Shown here in pieces: positions 4,689-43,771 of a DNA stretch of 48,186 bases. Position 1 is the first letter of the stretch. Every line of letters starts with the position of its first letter. Under the pieces are notes generated by a model, which did not search any database, was not told the origin of the DNA, and saw only the letters and a program-made list of their open reading frames with translations. Both the position numbers and the translations under genes were made by a program. The DNA comes from a virus, in the IMG/VR virus record IMGVR_UViG_3300037480_000036, positions 1 to 48,186 of that record. The stretch is one strand, 5' to 3'.

Positions 4689-4731
4689 ATCTTAGAACAC
4701 TTCGCACCTGAATACTGTGAACTAAGTCACA
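4689..4731 (-). promoter_or_regulatory. CRP-type class II promoter A, for the HTH gene
   Basis: Read on the reverse strand: TGTGA-CTTAGT-TCACA at 4731-4716, then 21 nt, then TAAGAT at 4694-4689 as the -10. Counting from the -10 puts the operator centre at -41.5. The geometry is the same as in promoters B, C, D and E. There is no consensus -35, as expected for an activator-dependent promoter. Confidence 0.75.
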
Positions 4732-6233: not shown

Positions 6234-6256
6234 CACTTAACGTGTTAGATGTGAAG

Positions 6257-6283
6257 AAGCCCACTTAGTTGTGGGCTTTTTGT
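6257..6283 (+). terminator. Rho-independent terminator after the capsid gene
   Basis: Perfect stem AAGCCCAC/GTGGGCTT (6257-6264 and 6271-6278) with loop TTAGTT and a following T run. Placed 24 nt after the capsid stop. It may also stop the converging reverse operon. Confidence 0.88.
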
Positions 6284-6673: not shown

Positions 6674-6716
6674 ATAGTAGAACAGTTACTAAACGAATAC
6701 TGTGAGCATTGTCACA
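6674..6716 (-). promoter_or_regulatory. CRP-type class II promoter B, for the zinc-ribbon/GGPLSGQ operon
   Basis: Read on the reverse strand: TGTGA-CAATGC-TCACA at 6716-6701, exactly 21 nt, then TACTAT at 6679-6674. The operator centre is at -41.5. The 6-nt context TGTTC-TA before and into the -10 is shared with promoters A and E. Confidence 0.78.
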
Positions 6717-15359: not shown

Positions 15360-15402
15360 TGAGATGTTCGTCACAGTTTTTCTCTGTTGGTTGTTCTATC
15401 AT
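15360..15402 (+). promoter_or_regulatory. CRP-type class II promoter E (forward)
   Basis: TGAGA-TGTTCG-TCACA at 15360-15375, exactly 21 nt, then TATCAT at 15397-15402. One half-site differs from consensus by one base. Geometry is identical to the four reverse promoters, and TGTTC-TA precedes the -10 as in A and B. It would drive the GGPLDGQ gene at 15442. Confidence 0.65.
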
Positions 15403-24712: not shown

Positions 24713-25432
24713 ATGCCTATAAACATCAAATTGAAAGGGGTTGAGTTCAATAACCCAAACTTACCAGTGATCATACCGACAACAGCAGACGGTTTTGTTG
24801 TTCGAGGCTTGTTCGGTGCTTACGACTTTAAAAACGGAAACGTTGCTAGTATGTATGGTATCGGGCCAGTGATAACTAAAACGGGTACATCGTCGCAGCC
24901 TTATGGTATCGAACTTAACGGTGCCGGTGACATGCTGGAATTAGCAGACAAGCCATTAGGTACTTGCACCTACATAGTGTTTTCACGAAATAGAAATGAA
25001 GGTGTTATATCAACAGACACAATCCTATCTGACTCATTTTCATTAGGTCAAGGGATGAGACTGCACTACCCTAATAATTCAGAAGTGAGCGCGTGGCAGT
25101 ATAATACAGTCGATAACAATCCAAAACCATCAATCGGCCTTACTGTTGATACTGATTGGGACGTGTTTGCTGTACGTGTGAACTATGAGACGCGTGAATT
25201 GAGCGTGTCAATGCTGAATGACAACAAGGTTCACACAACAACAGCAACAAATGCCTTTGTGCAAAGCAACGACCCGTTGAGGATCGGTGCTTCTAATGGT
25301 AATGGTAATGATCTGTTTGGTTCGGTAAGTATGTTTTTGATGTACGACACATACTTAACTGACGCTGAACTATCTGCAAACTATGCAGCAATCAAAGCAA
25401 ATCAGCCGTCAGAGATACCACCACTACCTTAA
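24713..25432 (+). CDS. Concanavalin/laminin-G-like lectin, accessory tail protein
   Basis: A 239-residue protein with the beta-sandwich pattern of LamG/ConA-like lectins: LFGAYDFKNG near residue 34, GIELNGAGDMLEL, DTDWDVFAVRVNYETRELSVSM and the closing SVSMFLMYDTYLTDAELSANYAAIK. This closing segment is typical of phage LamG proteins next to tail fibres. It probably binds surface sugars. GGAG precedes the ATG. The end overlaps the converging polymerase gene by 9 nt, so the late block ends here. Confidence 0.78.
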   Translation: MPINIKLKGVEFNNPNLPVIIPTTADGFVVRGLFGAYDFKNGNVASMYGIGPVITKTGTSSQPYGIELNGAGDMLELADKPLGTCTYIVFSRNRNEGVISTDTILSDSFSLGQGMRLHYPNNSEVSAWQYNTVDNNPKPSIGLTVDTDWDVFAVRVNYETRELSVSMLNDNKVHTTTATNAFVQSNDPLRIGASNGNGNDLFGSVSMFLMYDTYLTDAELSANYAAIKANQPSEIPPLP

Positions 25433-27508
25433 CTCATCAACCAACTTACGAGCTTCAGCAATGTAGTAATCGTAATTGATGTCATTAAACTCGTGGCCAG
25501 CGATACTGTTACAAACGGTCACGAGATACCCTTTTTGAATACTCATACGTCTATCTGGTGGTGTGTCGAATGGCTTAGGTATTTGGCCATACTTACCAGA
25601 TGGCGCTTTCTTAGCGTTCACCATCTTACCATTATCACGATGCTTCCAATGTGCCACGCTGTGCCATTTCTCAATGAGTGGCTGTGTAGGAGGCATAACT
25701 TTCGTTAACGCACCACCTGTTTCACTCACATAGTATCTTGACACGTTCTGCACCTGTTCATCACCGCATAACAAGTGACTGCTGCGCGGTACTTTGGTTC
25801 GTAAGAAGAAGTCGTACACATCATCATGGTTGTGAATGAACTCAGCGATGTCTTGATCGTGCATCAGTGCTGCTTCTGCTGCTTTAGCAACAACTACTGC
25901 ACTGTGGTTTTTATTCCACGTTAGTTCACGAGTACCACTGTTTTCTTCAATACGTTGATGTGCATAACAACCGATACGTTTAACATACTGGTTTTTATCA
26001 GCAGGTAGTGTTGCGTATTGTAATTCACCTAAACAATGGCTGAAGTCATCTGGTTTAGACCCGTTGGTAGGTAAGTCTTTAATCTTCCACTTGTCCGTTT
26101 TGGCCATATACGAATTTACATCTCGTATTGGCATACGTTCATAAGGTGCATGTTCAAGTTCGAGCTGTGTTAAATCTTCCCACCATTCACTCAGCAACAT
26201 TGCATGGTTAACATGTTCACGAGGACATGAATAAGTTACACCATCGGTGTTCATCTGAATCATGGTCAACCCAGGTATCTTGATTAACTGTTCAGTCAAC
26301 ATGCACAAAAGCAATTGGCCGTTAATGGTTGTTGCTAACGTGTACTTAGGATCTAAGAACGGACTGTGAACATCGTTTGATTTACCGTACACACCATTCA
26401 GTGCTAGTTTCATCATGTTGTTCTCAGCAGTACCTTTCGCATAAGTTTTACGTTGCTCATATACGTTAAGGTAAACATCACAGAATTTCTCAGTTAAGTG
26501 TTCAGGGTACAGCTTGTTCTTGATTGCCAGGTTCGGGTAGAACGATGCAACATCGCTGTCGATTATTTGATGTGTGTCTGTACTGGTACAAATCTGTTTA
26601 CTCAGTGAAGCATGAATACCACCACCACCGAACACAACATGGAAACCGTCAATATCAGCAGTAAGTTCCTGCTCGAATTGGCTAAAGTATGACTTAATAC
26701 CTTGACCTTCAGTTGGTATAACTGCATTGCGGAAAAACTCCAACACGCGCTGAAACTCAGGATGCTCGAACTGCACGTAAGGTAGAATAATCTCACCAGC
26801 GTTAACACATGCACGAGGTGTTTGAGTACGCTTATTAGCTTTCACACCTGCATCTGCCAGTTGCATCACGAAGAAGTCTGCACCTATCTTAGTGTCGTTG
26901 TGGTTCGTGAAGTTCTTATCGTACTTCTCAGTCAACTTGTCACGGAACTCAATCATAGGTCGTGATAGATCACCGAACTTACGAGTCGCCTTAACATCAT
27001 GCCAGTTGTACGTAAGCACCTCACGACTCTCAGCAAGTGTAAGCACATGGTCAGGTTTATACGGTAACTCGATGATGTCATCCATACGCATATTGAACTC
27101 TAACAACTTGAGTGATGTCATCTTGGCAGCGTTGTCGAAGTGGTGGATCTTCATCAGGTCGAGTTGTGGTACGAATTGGTTATCATCCCAAATAATATTA
27201 CTGAATCGATCACCGTTATTACCACACGTGATGATGTGGTCACACTTCTGCTTCAGCGTTGGCGCATCTATTTGGCCCTGCTGTTGCATGAGTAGGTGTA
27301 ACATAGGGTAATCGAACCCATAGTTATTAAATCCACCCATACGCCCACCACTGTTAGCTATCTGCATCAGTAGTTGGTACAGTGCTTGACCATCATGTTT
27401 CCACGGTGAGATTTCAAATTGCCAACGTGCTTTATCTGTATCACGCTCAATACAGATGCTGAAGAAGTTAGGGTAACTTTCGATGTCGTACCAGTAGATA
27501 GTGTTCAT
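25424..27508 (-). CDS. Family B DNA polymerase
   Basis: Replicative polymerase with 3'-5' proofreading, 694 residues. Exonuclease motifs: YDIESY (Asp8, Glu10), GGFNNYGFDYPML (Asn61, Asp66) and YNWHDVKATRKF (Asp171). Polymerase motifs: A DSDVASFYP (from 317), B KLALNGVYG (from 367), C MNTDG (Asp422). Motif C has Asn-Thr-Asp in place of the usual Asp-Thr-Asp, as in some phage B-type enzymes. It is last in the replication operon and its start overlaps the Dam gene by 4 nt. Confidence 0.95.
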   Translation of the reverse strand: MNTIYWYDIESYPNFFSICIERDTDKARWQFEISPWKHDGQALYQLLMQIANSGGRMGGFNNYGFDYPMLHLLMQQQGQIDAPTLKQKCDHIITCGNNGDRFSNIIWDDNQFVPQLDLMKIHHFDNAAKMTSLKLLEFNMRMDDIIELPYKPDHVLTLAESREVLTYNWHDVKATRKFGDLSRPMIEFRDKLTEKYDKNFTNHNDTKIGADFFVMQLADAGVKANKRTQTPRACVNAGEIILPYVQFEHPEFQRVLEFFRNAVIPTEGQGIKSYFSQFEQELTADIDGFHVVFGGGGIHASLSKQICTSTDTHQIIDSDVASFYPNLAIKNKLYPEHLTEKFCDVYLNVYEQRKTYAKGTAENNMMKLALNGVYGKSNDVHSPFLDPKYTLATTINGQLLLCMLTEQLIKIPGLTMIQMNTDGVTYSCPREHVNHAMLLSEWWEDLTQLELEHAPYERMPIRDVNSYMAKTDKWKIKDLPTNGSKPDDFSHCLGELQYATLPADKNQYVKRIGCYAHQRIEENSGTRELTWNKNHSAVVVAKAAEAALMHDQDIAEFIHNHDDVYDFFLRTKVPRSSHLLCGDEQVQNVSRYYVSETGGALTKVMPPTQPLIEKWHSVAHWKHRDNGKMVNAKKAPSGKYGQIPKPFDTPPDRRMSIQKGYLVTVCNSIAGHEFNDINYDYYIAEARKLVDELR

Positions 27509-28008
27509 CGGTCAGCATTCTCCATATCACAACGGTCGATTAGTTTAGCAGGTCGCTGTTCATCACCCCCATCAAACACAAACACCACAGACCCTTTATT
27601 ATTACCAGACTGAGGTTTACCCGTTTCAGCGTTAATGAAGCTAATACGACCACTTATGAACTCACATTCGGTACAGTTATAAAACGCCTCACGGAACCAC
27701 GCAACTGAGGTGTCAGCAGGTACAAGCATCACTGTTGTTTTGCCCTTGGTGGACTCATCAATGGCTTTATCAACCCACGGACGAATATTACTGTATGGAG
27801 GGTTACACCAATTCACCTTACCCCACGGTGTTGACAGTGCATCATCTGCTTCAGTCAAATAGTTAGGTACAAGATGGTTGTGGTCACTTGCAGCTACATC
27901 ACATGTGAACTTGTATTGCTTGTTGTACCAGTTGAACACGAACTTAGGTGTCTGAAATAAATCACGTATTGCTGGTTTAGTTGTCGAACCTGTGTAACCC
28001 TTGGCCAT
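27505..28008 (-). CDS. Phage DNA N6-adenine methyltransferase (Dam, PF05869 type)
   Basis: A 167-residue methylase. The N terminus DLFQTPKFVFNWYNKQYKFTCDVAAS and catalytic motif WCNPPYSNI near residue 92 are typical of the phage Dam family. It probably methylates adenine in phage DNA to evade host restriction. It lies between the MazG-like and polymerase genes in one operon, starting 1 nt after the former ends and overlapping the latter. Confidence 0.92.
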   Translation of the reverse strand: MAKGYTGSTTKPAIRDLFQTPKFVFNWYNKQYKFTCDVAASDHNHLVPNYLTEADDALSTPWGKVNWCNPPYSNIRPWVDKAIDESTKGKTTVMLVPADTSVAWFREAFYNCTECEFISGRISFINAETGKPQSGNNKGSVVFVFDGGDEQRPAKLIDRCDMENADR

Positions 28009-28009
28009 G

Positions 28010-28450
28010 TTACTCTCCTTGATTCTCAGGTAAGTCTTTAGCCTTAACGAATGTGCCGTTGATCATACGACCACCTGCTGTGCGCTTGTTAAGCACTTCA
28101 TACACAGGGTACAGCTCCGTAGAACGACTTGTACCAAGCATTGATAGTATTTGTGTACCAACAACGTGCATATCACATACAGCATCTATCTGTTCTGCTA
28201 CTGCGTTTTCAGGTGCTACTGGTTTGATACGACCACGTGCCAGTAATGCTAATAGCATACCTTGTACGATTTCTACAATTTCAGTAGGTGATTTATCAGG
28301 ACATTGAGCTGCAACTAATTCGACAAATTCTTCACCCATTTTGATGGTTTGCGCCCAGACAGTACCTTGCTCAACGATACATGTGTCGTGACCCCATTGG
28401 ACCAGTTTATTTTCTGTGTGGTTTAAGTCGTACGTGACAACTTCTCTCAT
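28010..28450 (-). CDS. MazG-like nucleotide pyrophosphohydrolase
   Basis: A 146-residue, all-helical protein. It has the metal-binding pattern of the MazG/dUTPase superfamily: KMGEEFVELVAAQ near residue 38 and EQIDAVCDMHVVGTQ near 86 (E-x-x-E, then E-x-x-D). It would hydrolyse non-canonical or excess NTPs, or lower ppGpp as proposed for other phage MazG proteins. The start overlaps the DUF3310 gene stop by ATGA. Confidence 0.75.
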   Translation of the reverse strand: MREVVTYDLNHTENKLVQWGHDTCIVEQGTVWAQTIKMGEEFVELVAAQCPDKSPTEIVEIVQGMLLALLARGRIKPVAPENAVAEQIDAVCDMHVVGTQILSMLGTSRSTELYPVYEVLNKRTAGGRMINGTFVKAKDLPENQGE

Positions 28451-28941
28451 GATTGTTTCTCCGCTTCATAAATCCATAAGTCCAGCACGTGTCGAGCTTT
28501 CTTCAGTTGCTCAACCTCGTTATCTTTGGCTCTGGTGGTGTATTTGTTAATCTTGGTATAACAAGCACCTGAGAATGCTTCATAACCTCGATTAAGTAAG
28601 GTTAGTTTTAATGGTTGAACAGCTTTATCTGTGTAATGACTACCACCAACTTGGCCATCCCAAGGTGAGGGTTTCGCACGTTTAATAGGTGGTGCAGACA
28701 ACACATCGTCATCTTCAACCCCATGTTCACACAACTGCACTTCTTCAACATGTTCAACGAAACGTGCTGATGTTGCATGTATTTTATGTCCGTCTTTATA
28801 CAAATAAGTACCTGTTGTACCGTTGTGTACTGCGAACACTTCACCTTCTTTGAAGCTACTACCTACACCTAATGTGCTGCAATCACTAACACAACGCACC
28901 ATCGCGTAGTTACCACATTCTGCTATCTTCTTACCTTTCAT
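28447..28941 (-). CDS. DUF3310 protein with N-terminal SH3-like extension
   Basis: A 164-residue protein. The C-terminal part has the DUF3310 pattern: VGGSHYTDKAVQPLKL near 98, then TKINKYTTRAKDNEVEQLKKARHVLD. The family is often labelled nucleotide kinase-like, but its function is unproven. The N-terminal 70 residues look like a beta-barrel. It is the first gene behind CRP-type promoter C, with AAGGA before the ATG, and starts the unit DUF3310, MazG, Dam, polymerase. Confidence 0.82.
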   Translation of the reverse strand: MKGKKIAECGNYAMVRCVSDCSTLGVGSSFKEGEVFAVHNGTTGTYLYKDGHKIHATSARFVEHVEEVQLCEHGVEDDDVLSAPPIKRAKPSPWDGQVGGSHYTDKAVQPLKLTLLNRGYEAFSGACYTKINKYTTRAKDNEVEQLKKARHVLDLWIYEAEKQS

Positions 28942-28959
28942 ATCCTGTTCCTTATAAAA

Positions 28960-28989
28960 AAGTCGTGAGGTAATAGTACGACACGACTT
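28960..28989 (-). terminator. Terminator hairpin interleaved with promoter C
   Basis: On the reverse strand, AAGTCGTG (28989-28982), a 14-nt loop, CACGACTT (28967-28960), then more T residues, fits a rho-independent terminator for transcripts coming from the upstream replication genes. The -10 of promoter C (28973-28978) lies in the loop. Transcripts starting at promoter C would lack the first arm and escape. Confidence 0.6.
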
Positions 28990-29015
28990 GTTGAATTACT
29001 GTGAACTGAATCACA
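28973..29015 (-). promoter_or_regulatory. CRP-type class II promoter C, for DUF3310-MazG-Dam-polymerase
   Basis: Read on the reverse strand: TGTGA-TTCAGT-TCACA at 29015-29000, exactly 21 nt, then TACTAT at 28978-28973. The operator overlaps the stop codon of the upstream HTH gene. Confidence 0.78.
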
Positions 29016-29259
29016 CTTTAGCTAAGATAGCTTCAGCACGTTTTAAACGATATGCTGAAATCATCCCCGATTGGCTATTATTACAGTGAACTCGCACACT
29101 TGATTCAGCTAGTCCAGTTGCTACCGCCACAACTTCAATGCCATGTTTGTTTACTAACCAACTTAATCGTTTACGGTTCTTGTCGTGATCCTGCTTTGGT
29201 TCAGCGTGGTCGATATCGTACTGCTTCACACACTGTTTTAACCAACTGATGTCAACCAT
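29011..29259 (-). CDS. Small HTH-like protein
   Basis: An 82-residue basic protein. Residues about 32-65 (WLVNKHGIEVVAVATGLAESSVRVHC) look like a helix-turn-helix with an Ala-rich first helix, then a recognition-like segment and RLKRAEAIL. DNA binding is likely, target unknown. It overlaps the VRR-NUC gene by 22 nt and is last in the upstream part of the replication operon, just before promoter C, so it is a candidate regulator of that point. Confidence 0.65.
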   Translation of the reverse strand: MVDISWLKQCVKQYDIDHAEPKQDHDKNRKRLSWLVNKHGIEVVAVATGLAESSVRVHCNNSQSGMISAYRLKRAEAILAKV

Positions 29260-32876: not shown

Positions 32877-32905
32877 ATGATAGGGGAAGTTGAAATGGTT
32901 GTAAA
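32877..32905 (-). promoter_or_regulatory. Reverse sigma70-like promoter of the replication operon
   Basis: On the reverse strand: TTTACA, 17 nt, TATCAT, about 45 nt before the ATG at 32832. Good fit to consensus without any activator site. Confidence 0.62.
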
Positions 32906-37680: not shown

Positions 37681-38252
37681 ACCTTCACCACCTTATAACC
37701 AGCATCAGTCAACACGTTCACGTTGTCATCTTGATCATCAAACGCACCTATAATATCGTGCGTTTTACTTATCTCGTTGAACTCATCCAACTTAACTAAC
37801 GTGTGACAGCGATTGTCGTTTATCTTGCGCATGTGAACATAACCAATTGGCAATCCTGCACTCATCAGCGCATCAAGTGTTTCACCTATCCCATCTTCAC
37901 AACGTGATGTGACGTAACGAATTTCCATGTCTGTCTTAGCTATTGCACGTGCTATGATTGCCACGTGTTCGATGACTGTATCTAAGTGACACGCTTTGTT
38001 CCACTCAGTCCAGTTTTCTGTACGTGATGGATCATCTGGTATCAAGTGTTCACGTGCTGAGTTATCGAACAACGTACCGTCAAGATCGAACACGTAACAC
38101 TCCTGCTTAATCAACGTCAGTTGTTCACGTGGTTTACCACCGATAACATAGAACTCACCAGGTGAGCGTTCTACTGACCACCAACACTGACCTGATTCTA
38201 ATATCTTCTTGATGTAACGCTTTCCATCAGCGTTCTGGTAATATGTTTCCAT
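37677..38252 (-). CDS. HAD-family phosphatase, polynucleotide phosphatase-like
   Basis: A 191-residue protein. HAD motifs: I YVFDLDGTLFDN near 52, II YVTSR near 112, III Lys in LVKLDEF near 152, IV IGAFDDQDDNV near 168. The order and short cap resemble the 3'-phosphatase half of T4-type polynucleotide kinase and related phage nucleotidases. It may clean 3' ends of DNA or RNA, or act on nucleotides. Last gene of the modification operon, downstream of the methylase-like gene. Confidence 0.85.
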   Translation of the reverse strand: METYYQNADGKRYIKKILESGQCWWSVERSPGEFYVIGGKPREQLTLIKQECYVFDLDGTLFDNSAREHLIPDDPSRTENWTEWNKACHLDTVIEHVAIIARAIAKTDMEIRYVTSRCEDGIGETLDALMSAGLPIGYVHMRKINDNRCHTLVKLDEFNEISKTHDIIGAFDDQDDNVNVLTDAGYKVVKV

Positions 38253-40544: not shown

Positions 40545-40587
40545 ATTATATATAACCACCCTGTCAATTACTGTGAGGTTGGTCACG
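40545..40587 (-). promoter_or_regulatory. CRP-type class II promoter D, for the DNA-modification operon
   Basis: Read on the reverse strand: CGTGA-CCAACC-TCACA at 40587-40572, exactly 21 nt, then a consensus TATAAT at 40550-40545. A second, N7-spaced copy TGTGA-TAACGGT-TCACA lies at 40592-40608. This is the strongest -10 of the set. Confidence 0.8.
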
Positions 40588-41497: not shown

Positions 41498-43771
41498 CTA
41501 AACTCCCACACGTTTAAACGACTTAACTTGACTACCGTCTGACTTGTGACGTACAGCATGTTCGTAACCTAAGTTGCGTAGCCATTTACCTAGTACAACT
41601 GAACTTGGTTTCTTGTTGTCTGACCACCAGTTATCAGGCATAACAGGTCTGAAGTCTTGGATCTGGAAACCGTCAACATGATCTATCAGTCTACCAGGTC
41701 TACCGTCTGAGAAGTGTGCGTTATCTAAGTATTCCTGTAATCGGTTTTCTTTCTCACTGGCTGTTTGTGCGTTCAGTTCTGTGCCGAACTTAGTCTGTGG
41801 TGCGCGGAATCGGTTATTGACAAACTCATCACTGATAACATGATCACGCAACGCCCAATGTACAGCAGGTGCATGTTCATCAAGGTTAACTGCGTTCATC
41901 ATGTCATCAAAATGCTGTTTCATGTCTGTTTGTGTACGAACAGTTACCGTATTTTTACCAAAGTGCTGTGTCTCAAGTATGAACCAACGACGATCATCAT
42001 GTGCAACACTAATCGGATCTGGCTCATTCGTGAACGCGATGTAGTTACAGAAGTTAGGCATTGTTACTTCTTTCGTACCTTTCGGGTTTATCGTTACACG
42101 TTTCTCTGTGATAAATGGTTTCATGTCATTGGCAACACGACGACTATCTTTGTTTCCCACCTTGATTTCCTCAAACGCAGTTACCGCTGAGTTCTTGGCC
42201 CAATCTTGGAAGTCTGAATTAACAGATTTGTTACCCATCATCTTAGTGTTGTTACTACCCACAGCAGATGTAACCAGCTGAAACAGAATAGATTTACCAT
42301 CACCGCGGCAACCCATTAGTAATGGTAACCAACCCACAAGTTCACCTGTGTGTTGTACCTGCCATGCTAGCCAATCGAGGATAATGTGTTGGTGTTTAAT
42401 ATCTTCAAATAACCAGCAAAGATGTGACTTAATCAGCAGTGTAATACGATCTATTTCTGCCTGTGCTGGACGTTTTGGTTCGTATGGGTAATAAGCGTTA
42501 AGGTATGTCTTGCGCTCATACTCCACAATATCTTCACCACCGGGCATATAAAACAAATCTGCGACCACTATACCGTTACATGCTTCCCATACATCAGATG
42601 CTTTATGTTTCTTGAACGACTTACTGCCGGTCTTAACTGGCATACGATCATGGTGTAGTGCATCAAACGACGTTTTGTTGTAGTCAGTGAGAGAGAATTT
42701 ATCGATGTAACGACCTTGTGTGTTCATTACCCAATTATCACGAAAATAGGTGTAATGAGCGTGTAAGATTCCAATGTCAGGGTTGTCAGCGTCTAACTCA
42801 CCTGATTCTAGCGCCATAGTGAGTGCTGTGTCGGCTTCTACGTTGATATTAGTGTTGTTTACTACCTGTGATGCAAAAACCTCTGAGGCTTGCGCTATGG
42901 GCTTAATATACGGTGCGTCGCGTCGAGGTGTGCTGAACCCTGCTGTCCATGCCGATTCAAGTGTTGCTATCACTTCAGATCGTTCACAACCGGCTTTCAT
43001 GGCTGAGTCGAATAACAGGGTGTGTGATGCTTGACTGTCTAACGCTCCACCAGCAACAAGTCCTGCTACGGTCACTGCCAATGTGTTCAGTGTGGCGTTA
43101 CGACCGCCATCTTCTGTGTTCTCCATCTCATCACATGCTATGTGTAACCAATCTTCAGCAAGTTGTATCTGATGATCTGAACATTTGATTGTGCTGTCGA
43201 AGTCCTGCTGAACGTGTGTTGTTTCACGTTTAAGTTGATCTGTGATGATGGATGGTGCTGTTGGATAGCTGTCAGACGCTCTGAGAAGCGCTGTCTTGGA
43301 TTCTTTCAAGTAACACAACTGATTACCCGTTTTGATGTCGATATGCTTCCAGAAGTGTTCTAGGGTGCCTGAATTCGATTGTTTGAAGTCTGTTACGTTG
43401 AACTCTGGTGGTGCGATGAAGAAAAAGTGCAGTGAAGTCATCTCACTGTTCCACTGTACTAAACATTCATCAAATAGCGTTTGTGCCGATGTGAAGCCTA
43501 GCGCGGTGGCTAGTTCATCTGTTGAAGGTATCTCACCTACTGCCTCTGGTTTGTTTCCATCATAGTCCACCAGCACCAGATTGTTTAAGCGAATACCTAC
43601 ACGATCACTGTCAGATGCTTTGGCCCACAGTTGATGATCGTCAGGGTACGTTTGCTTGAGTTTGTAAGGTGCTGGACGTTTGCCTTTCTCACCACACCAA
43701 TCTGCGTAAGGTATGAGGTCGTATGATTGTTTGATTTCAGATGGGATCTGTCTTACAATGTCGATCGACAT
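41498..43771 (-). CDS. Primase-helicase, prim-pol plus DUF5906/SF3-type
   Basis: A 757-residue replication initiator type protein. The N-terminal part has a primase-polymerase-like pair: LVLVDYDGN near 66 and LHFFFIAP near 113. The C-terminal ATPase has Walker A MGCRGDGKSILF near 490, Walker B VTAFEEIK near 530 and a sensor stretch NYIAFTNEPDPI near 575, then DDRRWFILE. It resembles D5/P4-alpha-like helicase-primases. It lies beside the repeat-rich region 43860-44190, which supports an origin there. AAGGAG precedes the ATG. Confidence 0.88.
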   Translation of the reverse strand: MSIDIVRQIPSEIKQSYDLIPYADWCGEKGKRPAPYKLKQTYPDDHQLWAKASDSDRVGIRLNNLVLVDYDGNKPEAVGEIPSTDELATALGFTSAQTLFDECLVQWNSEMTSLHFFFIAPPEFNVTDFKQSNSGTLEHFWKHIDIKTGNQLCYLKESKTALLRASDSYPTAPSIITDQLKRETTHVQQDFDSTIKCSDHQIQLAEDWLHIACDEMENTEDGGRNATLNTLAVTVAGLVAGGALDSQASHTLLFDSAMKAGCERSEVIATLESAWTAGFSTPRRDAPYIKPIAQASEVFASQVVNNTNINVEADTALTMALESGELDADNPDIGILHAHYTYFRDNWVMNTQGRYIDKFSLTDYNKTSFDALHHDRMPVKTGSKSFKKHKASDVWEACNGIVVADLFYMPGGEDIVEYERKTYLNAYYPYEPKRPAQAEIDRITLLIKSHLCWLFEDIKHQHIILDWLAWQVQHTGELVGWLPLLMGCRGDGKSILFQLVTSAVGSNNTKMMGNKSVNSDFQDWAKNSAVTAFEEIKVGNKDSRRVANDMKPFITEKRVTINPKGTKEVTMPNFCNYIAFTNEPDPISVAHDDRRWFILETQHFGKNTVTVRTQTDMKQHFDDMMNAVNLDEHAPAVHWALRDHVISDEFVNNRFRAPQTKFGTELNAQTASEKENRLQEYLDNAHFSDGRPGRLIDHVDGFQIQDFRPVMPDNWWSDNKKPSSVVLGKWLRNLGYEHAVRHKSDGSQVKSFKRVGV

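Follow-up and report, generated by a model that had tools for sequence, protein, structure and literature searches.

A predicted host-CRP-dependent promoter set in the terminator hairpin of the preceding operon, with a layout that recurs among Vibrio phages

The terminator of the leftward recombination operon in the virus studied here probably also holds the −10 element and the start point of a class II promoter, dependent on host CRP-cAMP, for the next operon; we base this reading of a composite punctuation element on sequence comparison, folding, and shuffling. The DNA analysed, hereafter called the window, comprises the whole of virus record IMGVR_UViG_3300037480_000036 (48,186 bases), and its kin are the Vibrio phages D164, D287, and D63. 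Comparison of related genomes strongly supports the view that the layout of the element, and not its sequence, is conserved in relatives and that it recurs in other Vibrio phages.

All parts of the element lie on the minus strand. The upstream open reading frame ends with AAA GTG TGA, and its stop codon TGA (29013–29011) falls within a perfect CRP site, TGTGATTCAGTTCACA (29000–29015), which matches the consensus TGTGA-N6-TCACA at 10 of 10 positions. Exactly 21 nt past this site is the −10 element TACTAT (28973–28978), enclosed in the 14-nt loop of a hairpin (28989–28960) whose 5′ arm AAGTCGTG (28982–28989) and 3′ arm CACGACTT (28960–28967) form an 8-bp, half-AT stem; an inner 3-bp stem is possible in the loop. 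The T run TTTTTT (28956–28961) would provide the U tail of the terminator, and the 3′ ends of transcripts would be expected at about 28957–28953. The Shine–Dalgarno sequence AAGGAA (28948–28953) and the start codon ATG (28941) of the downstream gene follow, with the stop codon, CRP site, hairpin, −10 element, and ribosome site all falling within about 75 nt. From the geometry, the predicted +1 is A28966, the second base of the 3′ arm, which puts the centre of the CRP site at −41.5, as in class II promoters; the −35 position reads CAGTAA, a poor match such as class II CRP promoters are expected to have. The initial annotation had described the −10 of a CRP-type promoter, its promoter C, as lying in the loop of a T-tailed 8-bp hairpin, with the start inside the second arm. 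The sequence and coordinates of this interleaved arrangement check out, the site and its 21-nt spacing agree with a CRP-type promoter of class II geometry, and the start position in the second arm is upheld as a prediction from that geometry.

The folding calculation proposed in the initial annotation gave −12.6 kcal/mol for the hairpin, with z = −5.3 and no equal among 200 shuffles. The claim that RNA from promoter C cannot form the hairpin was borne out by folding, since the second arm is only partly retained in RNA beginning at 28966, which gives nothing comparable. When six elements were folded in the same way, none of the truncated RNAs kept a stable hairpin; the predicted +1 was a purine in five of the six, the exception being L276_8074 with T. 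A custom terminator scan (stem of at least 7, at least 4 GC, T tail, loop of at most 16) found four terminators in 48 kb, and the hairpin at 28989–28960 was the sole one on the minus strand. A stock scan did not report this hairpin because it accepts only loops of 3–8 nt, the range typical of strong terminators, against 14 nt in the window; the D164 counterpart has a loop of 3 nt. The long loop makes the strength of termination uncertain, and together with the 8-bp half-AT stem it could mean that the terminator is leaky or only partial. It should be noted that a plus-strand hairpin with TATAAT in its loop (37741–37764) was rejected as chance, as it lies inside a minus-strand gene and has no −35.

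The element separates two leftward units. The upstream one is a recombination operon of five genes (32832–29011), with a candidate sigma-70 promoter, TTTACA-17-TATCAT (32877–32905, minus strand), identified by consensus match only. Its last gene (29011–29259, minus strand) encodes a small protein of 82 aa that had no Pfam or PHROG match and no viral relatives in the IMG/VR search; its homologue in phage KLEA5 is annotated as a putative transcriptional regulator. The upstream nuclease had no relative in the GTDB search. Downstream, on the same strand, are the genes of a DUF3310 protein of 164 aa (28447–28941, PF11753), a MazG-like pyrophosphatase (28010–28450, phrog_715, no Pfam match), a Dam-type DNA N6-adenine methyltransferase (27505–28008, PF05869), and a DNA polymerase (25424–27508, phrog_1252), so that the gene functions named in the initial annotation are supported by HMM matches.

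In the proposed mechanism, transcription from the candidate promoter at 32905–32877 would run through the five upstream genes and make the whole hairpin, and RNA polymerase would stop in the T run, ahead of the next ribosome-binding site. CRP-cAMP at −41.5 would recruit polymerase to the embedded −10, with initiation in the 3′ arm; because the RNA so started begins inside this arm, it could not fold the hairpin and would escape the terminator. The two operons would thereby be uncoupled, and the second, with DUF3310, MazG-like, Dam, and polymerase genes, would depend on host cAMP-CRP. The CRP dependence of the embedded promoter is predicted from the site and its spacing alone, and we likewise infer the efficiency of termination, the binding of CRP, and any interference between both activities. 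The transfer of control from the first promoter to the CRP-type one, as the initial annotation had it, is a plausible interpretation.

No match to PF13545 or PF00027 was found in the phage, while control searches gave matches; the activator would therefore be that of the host, as no CRP-type domain is detectable with Pfam, and we set aside a phage-encoded regulator with a cNMP-binding or Crp-type HTH domain. An N4-type hairpin promoter read by a phage RNA polymerase was also considered and set aside; a search for a single-subunit RNA polymerase of the phage (PF00940) gave no match, and neither did its control search.

The same layout follows the same upstream gene in Vibrio phages D164 and D287 and in two metagenomic relatives, L007 and L008. 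In D164/D287, the homologue of the 29011–29259 gene also ends in AAA GTG TGA inside a CRP site, TGTGAGTAACTTCACG, followed after 21 nt by TATGAT; the arms AATCACCTT/AAGGTGATT are unrelated to those of the window, and a T-rich tail is present. In L007/L008, the CRP site TGTGACTTAGTTCACA is again followed at 21 nt by TATGAT, with arms AACCGTG/CACGGTT and the tail TTTATTTATTTTT. Within this group, the tail bases, the CRP half-sites, and T-A---T in the −10 are largely invariant, and it is the arm bases that vary, giving three distinct hairpins with pairing kept. The L007 pairs lie in the same register as those of the window, and two of them show compensatory changes between the two sequences (G-C/A-T and T-A/C-G). 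The D164 hairpin is shifted in register and therefore looks re-made rather than copied. The genes that follow differ in part: DUF3310 comes next in the window, D164 has small ORFs, and L008 has another ORF; Dam-type and polymerase genes lie further downstream in the window, D164, and L007. The element is missing in the more distant relatives examined, where the primase gene usually adjoins the upstream gene. As a separate observation, the element is located at a synteny break: the primase gene directly follows the 82-aa gene in related phages (L058–L069) and is placed elsewhere in the window/D164 group (41498–43771, minus strand, in the window).

The comparison bears on the reading that only one half of the element works, for instance a genuine terminator whose −10 is decorative, or a genuine promoter whose flanking repeat serves as a hairpin for mRNA processing or stability. 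TACTAT matches only four of the six −10 positions and the hairpin is moderate, both in keeping with such a reading. Against this, divergent relatives keep the two halves together and retain the −10 register and the T-rich tail, and in the 46-kb genome of D164 the element is the only CRP site with 0–1 mismatch, 21-nt spacing, and a good −10. We regard a single working half as unlikely.

The window contains three perfect CRP sites against a shuffle mean of 0.18, and one of 300 shuffles reaches three; a −10-like hexamer stands at exactly 21 nt from all three and from two one-mismatch sites. The two other perfect sites give class II promoters on the minus strand, both without a hairpin, at 4689–4731 (TAAGAT at 21 nt, before an HTH gene) and at 6674–6716 (TACTAT at 21 nt, before small minus-strand genes). 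These two units consist of small genes among the plus-strand head genes and resemble morons with their own promoters; the 6674–6716 unit terminates at a hairpin common to the plus strand (6255–6280). The one-mismatch, CRP-like promoters are at 15360–15402 on the plus strand (TATCAT at 21 nt, no hairpin) and at 40545–40587 on the minus strand, where a stop codon immediately precedes the promoter and TATAAT stands at 21 nt. In the latter, the −10 is at the apex of a long hairpin of −13.3 kcal/mol with no T tail; this promoter could represent the same design in weaker form, or else an operator. A T-tailed hairpin is thus absent from four of the five class II CRP promoters in the window.

The frequency of an equally good hairpin in shuffles that held the CRP site and −10 fixed was 0.085% (window), 0.03% (D164), and 0.2% (L007).

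The layout was also found in other phages. A pattern search of IMG/VR led to the viral contigs L276 and L278, whose isolated relatives include 1.060.A, 1.197.A, ZQ26, 1.291.O, and BUCT006 (the 1.060.A group). This group is essentially unalignable with the window: the DNA of L276, ZQ26, 1.060.A, and BUCT006 has only two short stretches in common with it, of 159 and 51 nt. A search of phage DNA with the element region gave no match. Each of the five isolates has 3–7 class II CRP-like promoters per genome, which suggests that host cAMP-CRP may be a main regulator of the phages of this group. In several of these promoters, at three boundaries, the −10 is enclosed by a hairpin that a T-rich tail follows. 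After terL, the arms are CACGCAG/CTGCGTG with TTTTTATTTTATT, and BUCT006 has a different hairpin in the same place. Near ninX, the arms AAGCCC/GGGCTT become AAGCCA/TGGCTT in L278, a compensatory change, and BUCT006 has a T7 tail there. The third boundary also carries a hairpin-embedded CRP-like promoter.

Overall, once near-identical copies are collapsed, these phages have 20 distinct class II CRP sites, 9 of them hairpin-embedded, against a shuffle mean of 0.0025; this proportion is not unbiased, because a T-rich tail was already part of the search pattern that led to L276 and L278, and similarity to L276 was the basis on which the five isolates were picked. The same test gave none among 27 other viral pattern matches, and the matches to the pattern in IMG/VR and GTDB were mostly without real hairpins. 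In Kosakonia, a hairpin lies on the −10 between the genes of a LacI-type regulator and a sugar-binding protein, a pair that we take to be galS-mglB; we read it as accidental because related genera do not keep it.

These counts, together with the shuffles, bear on chance overlap of the two signals. AT-rich DNA commonly contains hairpin-like repeats and −10-like hexamers, and the layout is also seen at 2 of 84 bacterial sites, from genomes pre-selected for TTTT downstream. Against chance stand the shuffle frequencies of 0.0003–0.002 per site in three divergent members, the orthologous position of the element, and its recurrence in another phage group, and we consider this explanation extremely improbable.

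In a general scan of 814 kb, T-tailed loop promoters numbered seven, whereas ten shuffles averaged 0.6; the CRP cases account for four of the seven. In Vibrio phage LMAVpS1 (L061, 6785–6880), a sigma-70 promoter, TTTACA-17-TATAGT, downstream of the primase gene has its −10 in the loop of a T-tailed hairpin with TTTTATTTTA, identical in five LMAVp-type phages. Loop promoters of L099 and L110 are single cases and were not counted. Very strong hairpins also occur at or close to the −10 of sigma-70 promoters with TTTACA in 1.037.O (L063, 6640–6740), 489E54-1 (L069, 6650–6730), and KLEA5 (L062, 6595–6695); having no T tail, they were likewise left out of the count.

The inverted repeat could instead be a DNA operator, with a repressor, perhaps the upstream 82-aa protein, bound to both arms across the −10 so as to repress the CRP promoter, and the T run being incidental. 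The arms do flank the −10, the homologue of the 82-aa protein is annotated as a putative regulator, and a palindrome with no T tail also covers the −10 of a second CRP promoter, at 40587. On the other hand, the arms are wholly different among the window, L007/L008, and D164, with shifts in spacing and register, although the 82-aa proteins are alike; a T-rich tail stands behind the arm in every window-group copy and at terL; and phages with almost no DNA in common with the window show the same layout next to different genes. An operator is therefore, in our opinion, quite unlikely.

It is harder to distinguish our reading from mere compaction, in which a terminator and a CRP promoter, both of the ordinary kind, are placed in one intergenic gap and their overlap brings no benefit. 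This explanation is compatible with ours, differing solely in the denial of a benefit, and the anatomy would look identical: all the parts lie in about 75 nt, and phage genomes are compact. The −10 nevertheless falls in the loop or 3′ arm at 9 of the 20 distinct sites, although a terminator could just as well sit upstream of the CRP site. Compaction without benefit thus seems possible, with the balance of evidence tipping away from it.

If the composite element works as we propose, the embedded promoter would be covered whenever a polymerase terminates, which makes both interference and re-initiation possible. After intrinsic termination, polymerase can remain bound to the DNA and initiate again close by (PMC6978380, PMC6978322). 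One can imagine a relay in which polymerase terminated in the T run remains on the DNA, its footprint covering the −10, is captured by CRP (and sigma), and restarts there; we mention this as a speculation with little probability. Were it true, the terminator would load the next promoter, upstream transcription would be the supply and cAMP-CRP the permission, and termination-coupled, CRP-gated initiation would be used repeatedly in Vibrio phages.

The recurrence of the layout is what makes the element of interest. It is a compact genetic part and a natural test bed for terminating and initiating polymerases on the same DNA, and it suggests that several groups of Vibrio phages may tie sets of genes to the cAMP (nutrient) state of the host.

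Class II CRP-dependent promoters of the E. coli type have TGTGA-N6-TCACA at −41.5, a poor −35, and the −10 at 21 nt. The geometry here is alike, but the promoter is phage-borne, and its −10 and start lie inside the intrinsic terminator of the previous operon. With intrinsic terminators the element shares self-complementary arms, a U tail, and an arm sequence that is free to change; it differs in its long loop, which holds a −10 in fixed register to a CRP site. In E. coli frd/ampC, the terminator of one operon and the promoter region of the next share DNA, as here. There, however, the promoter is upstream and the hairpin is an attenuator also made by the promoter's own transcripts, whereas RNA from promoter C is predicted to be unable to make the hairpin. 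Phrase searches of open-access papers turned up no account of a CRP promoter lying inside a terminator loop. According to the excerpted account of phage T1, cAMP-CRP represses its pir, dam, and recE promoters (PMC6737242); both phages would thus read host CRP, but T1 by repression, whereas the geometry here predicts activation, and that excerpted account describes no terminator overlap (PMC6737242). Post-termination recycling was observed on other templates, with mostly antisense restarts in one study (PMC6978380, PMC6978322), and is only a possible use of the present element. Taken together, each half of the element is textbook, but a class II CRP promoter in the terminator loop of the previous operon, as predicted here in a layout that recurs while its hairpin is re-made, did not turn up in the open-access papers searched.
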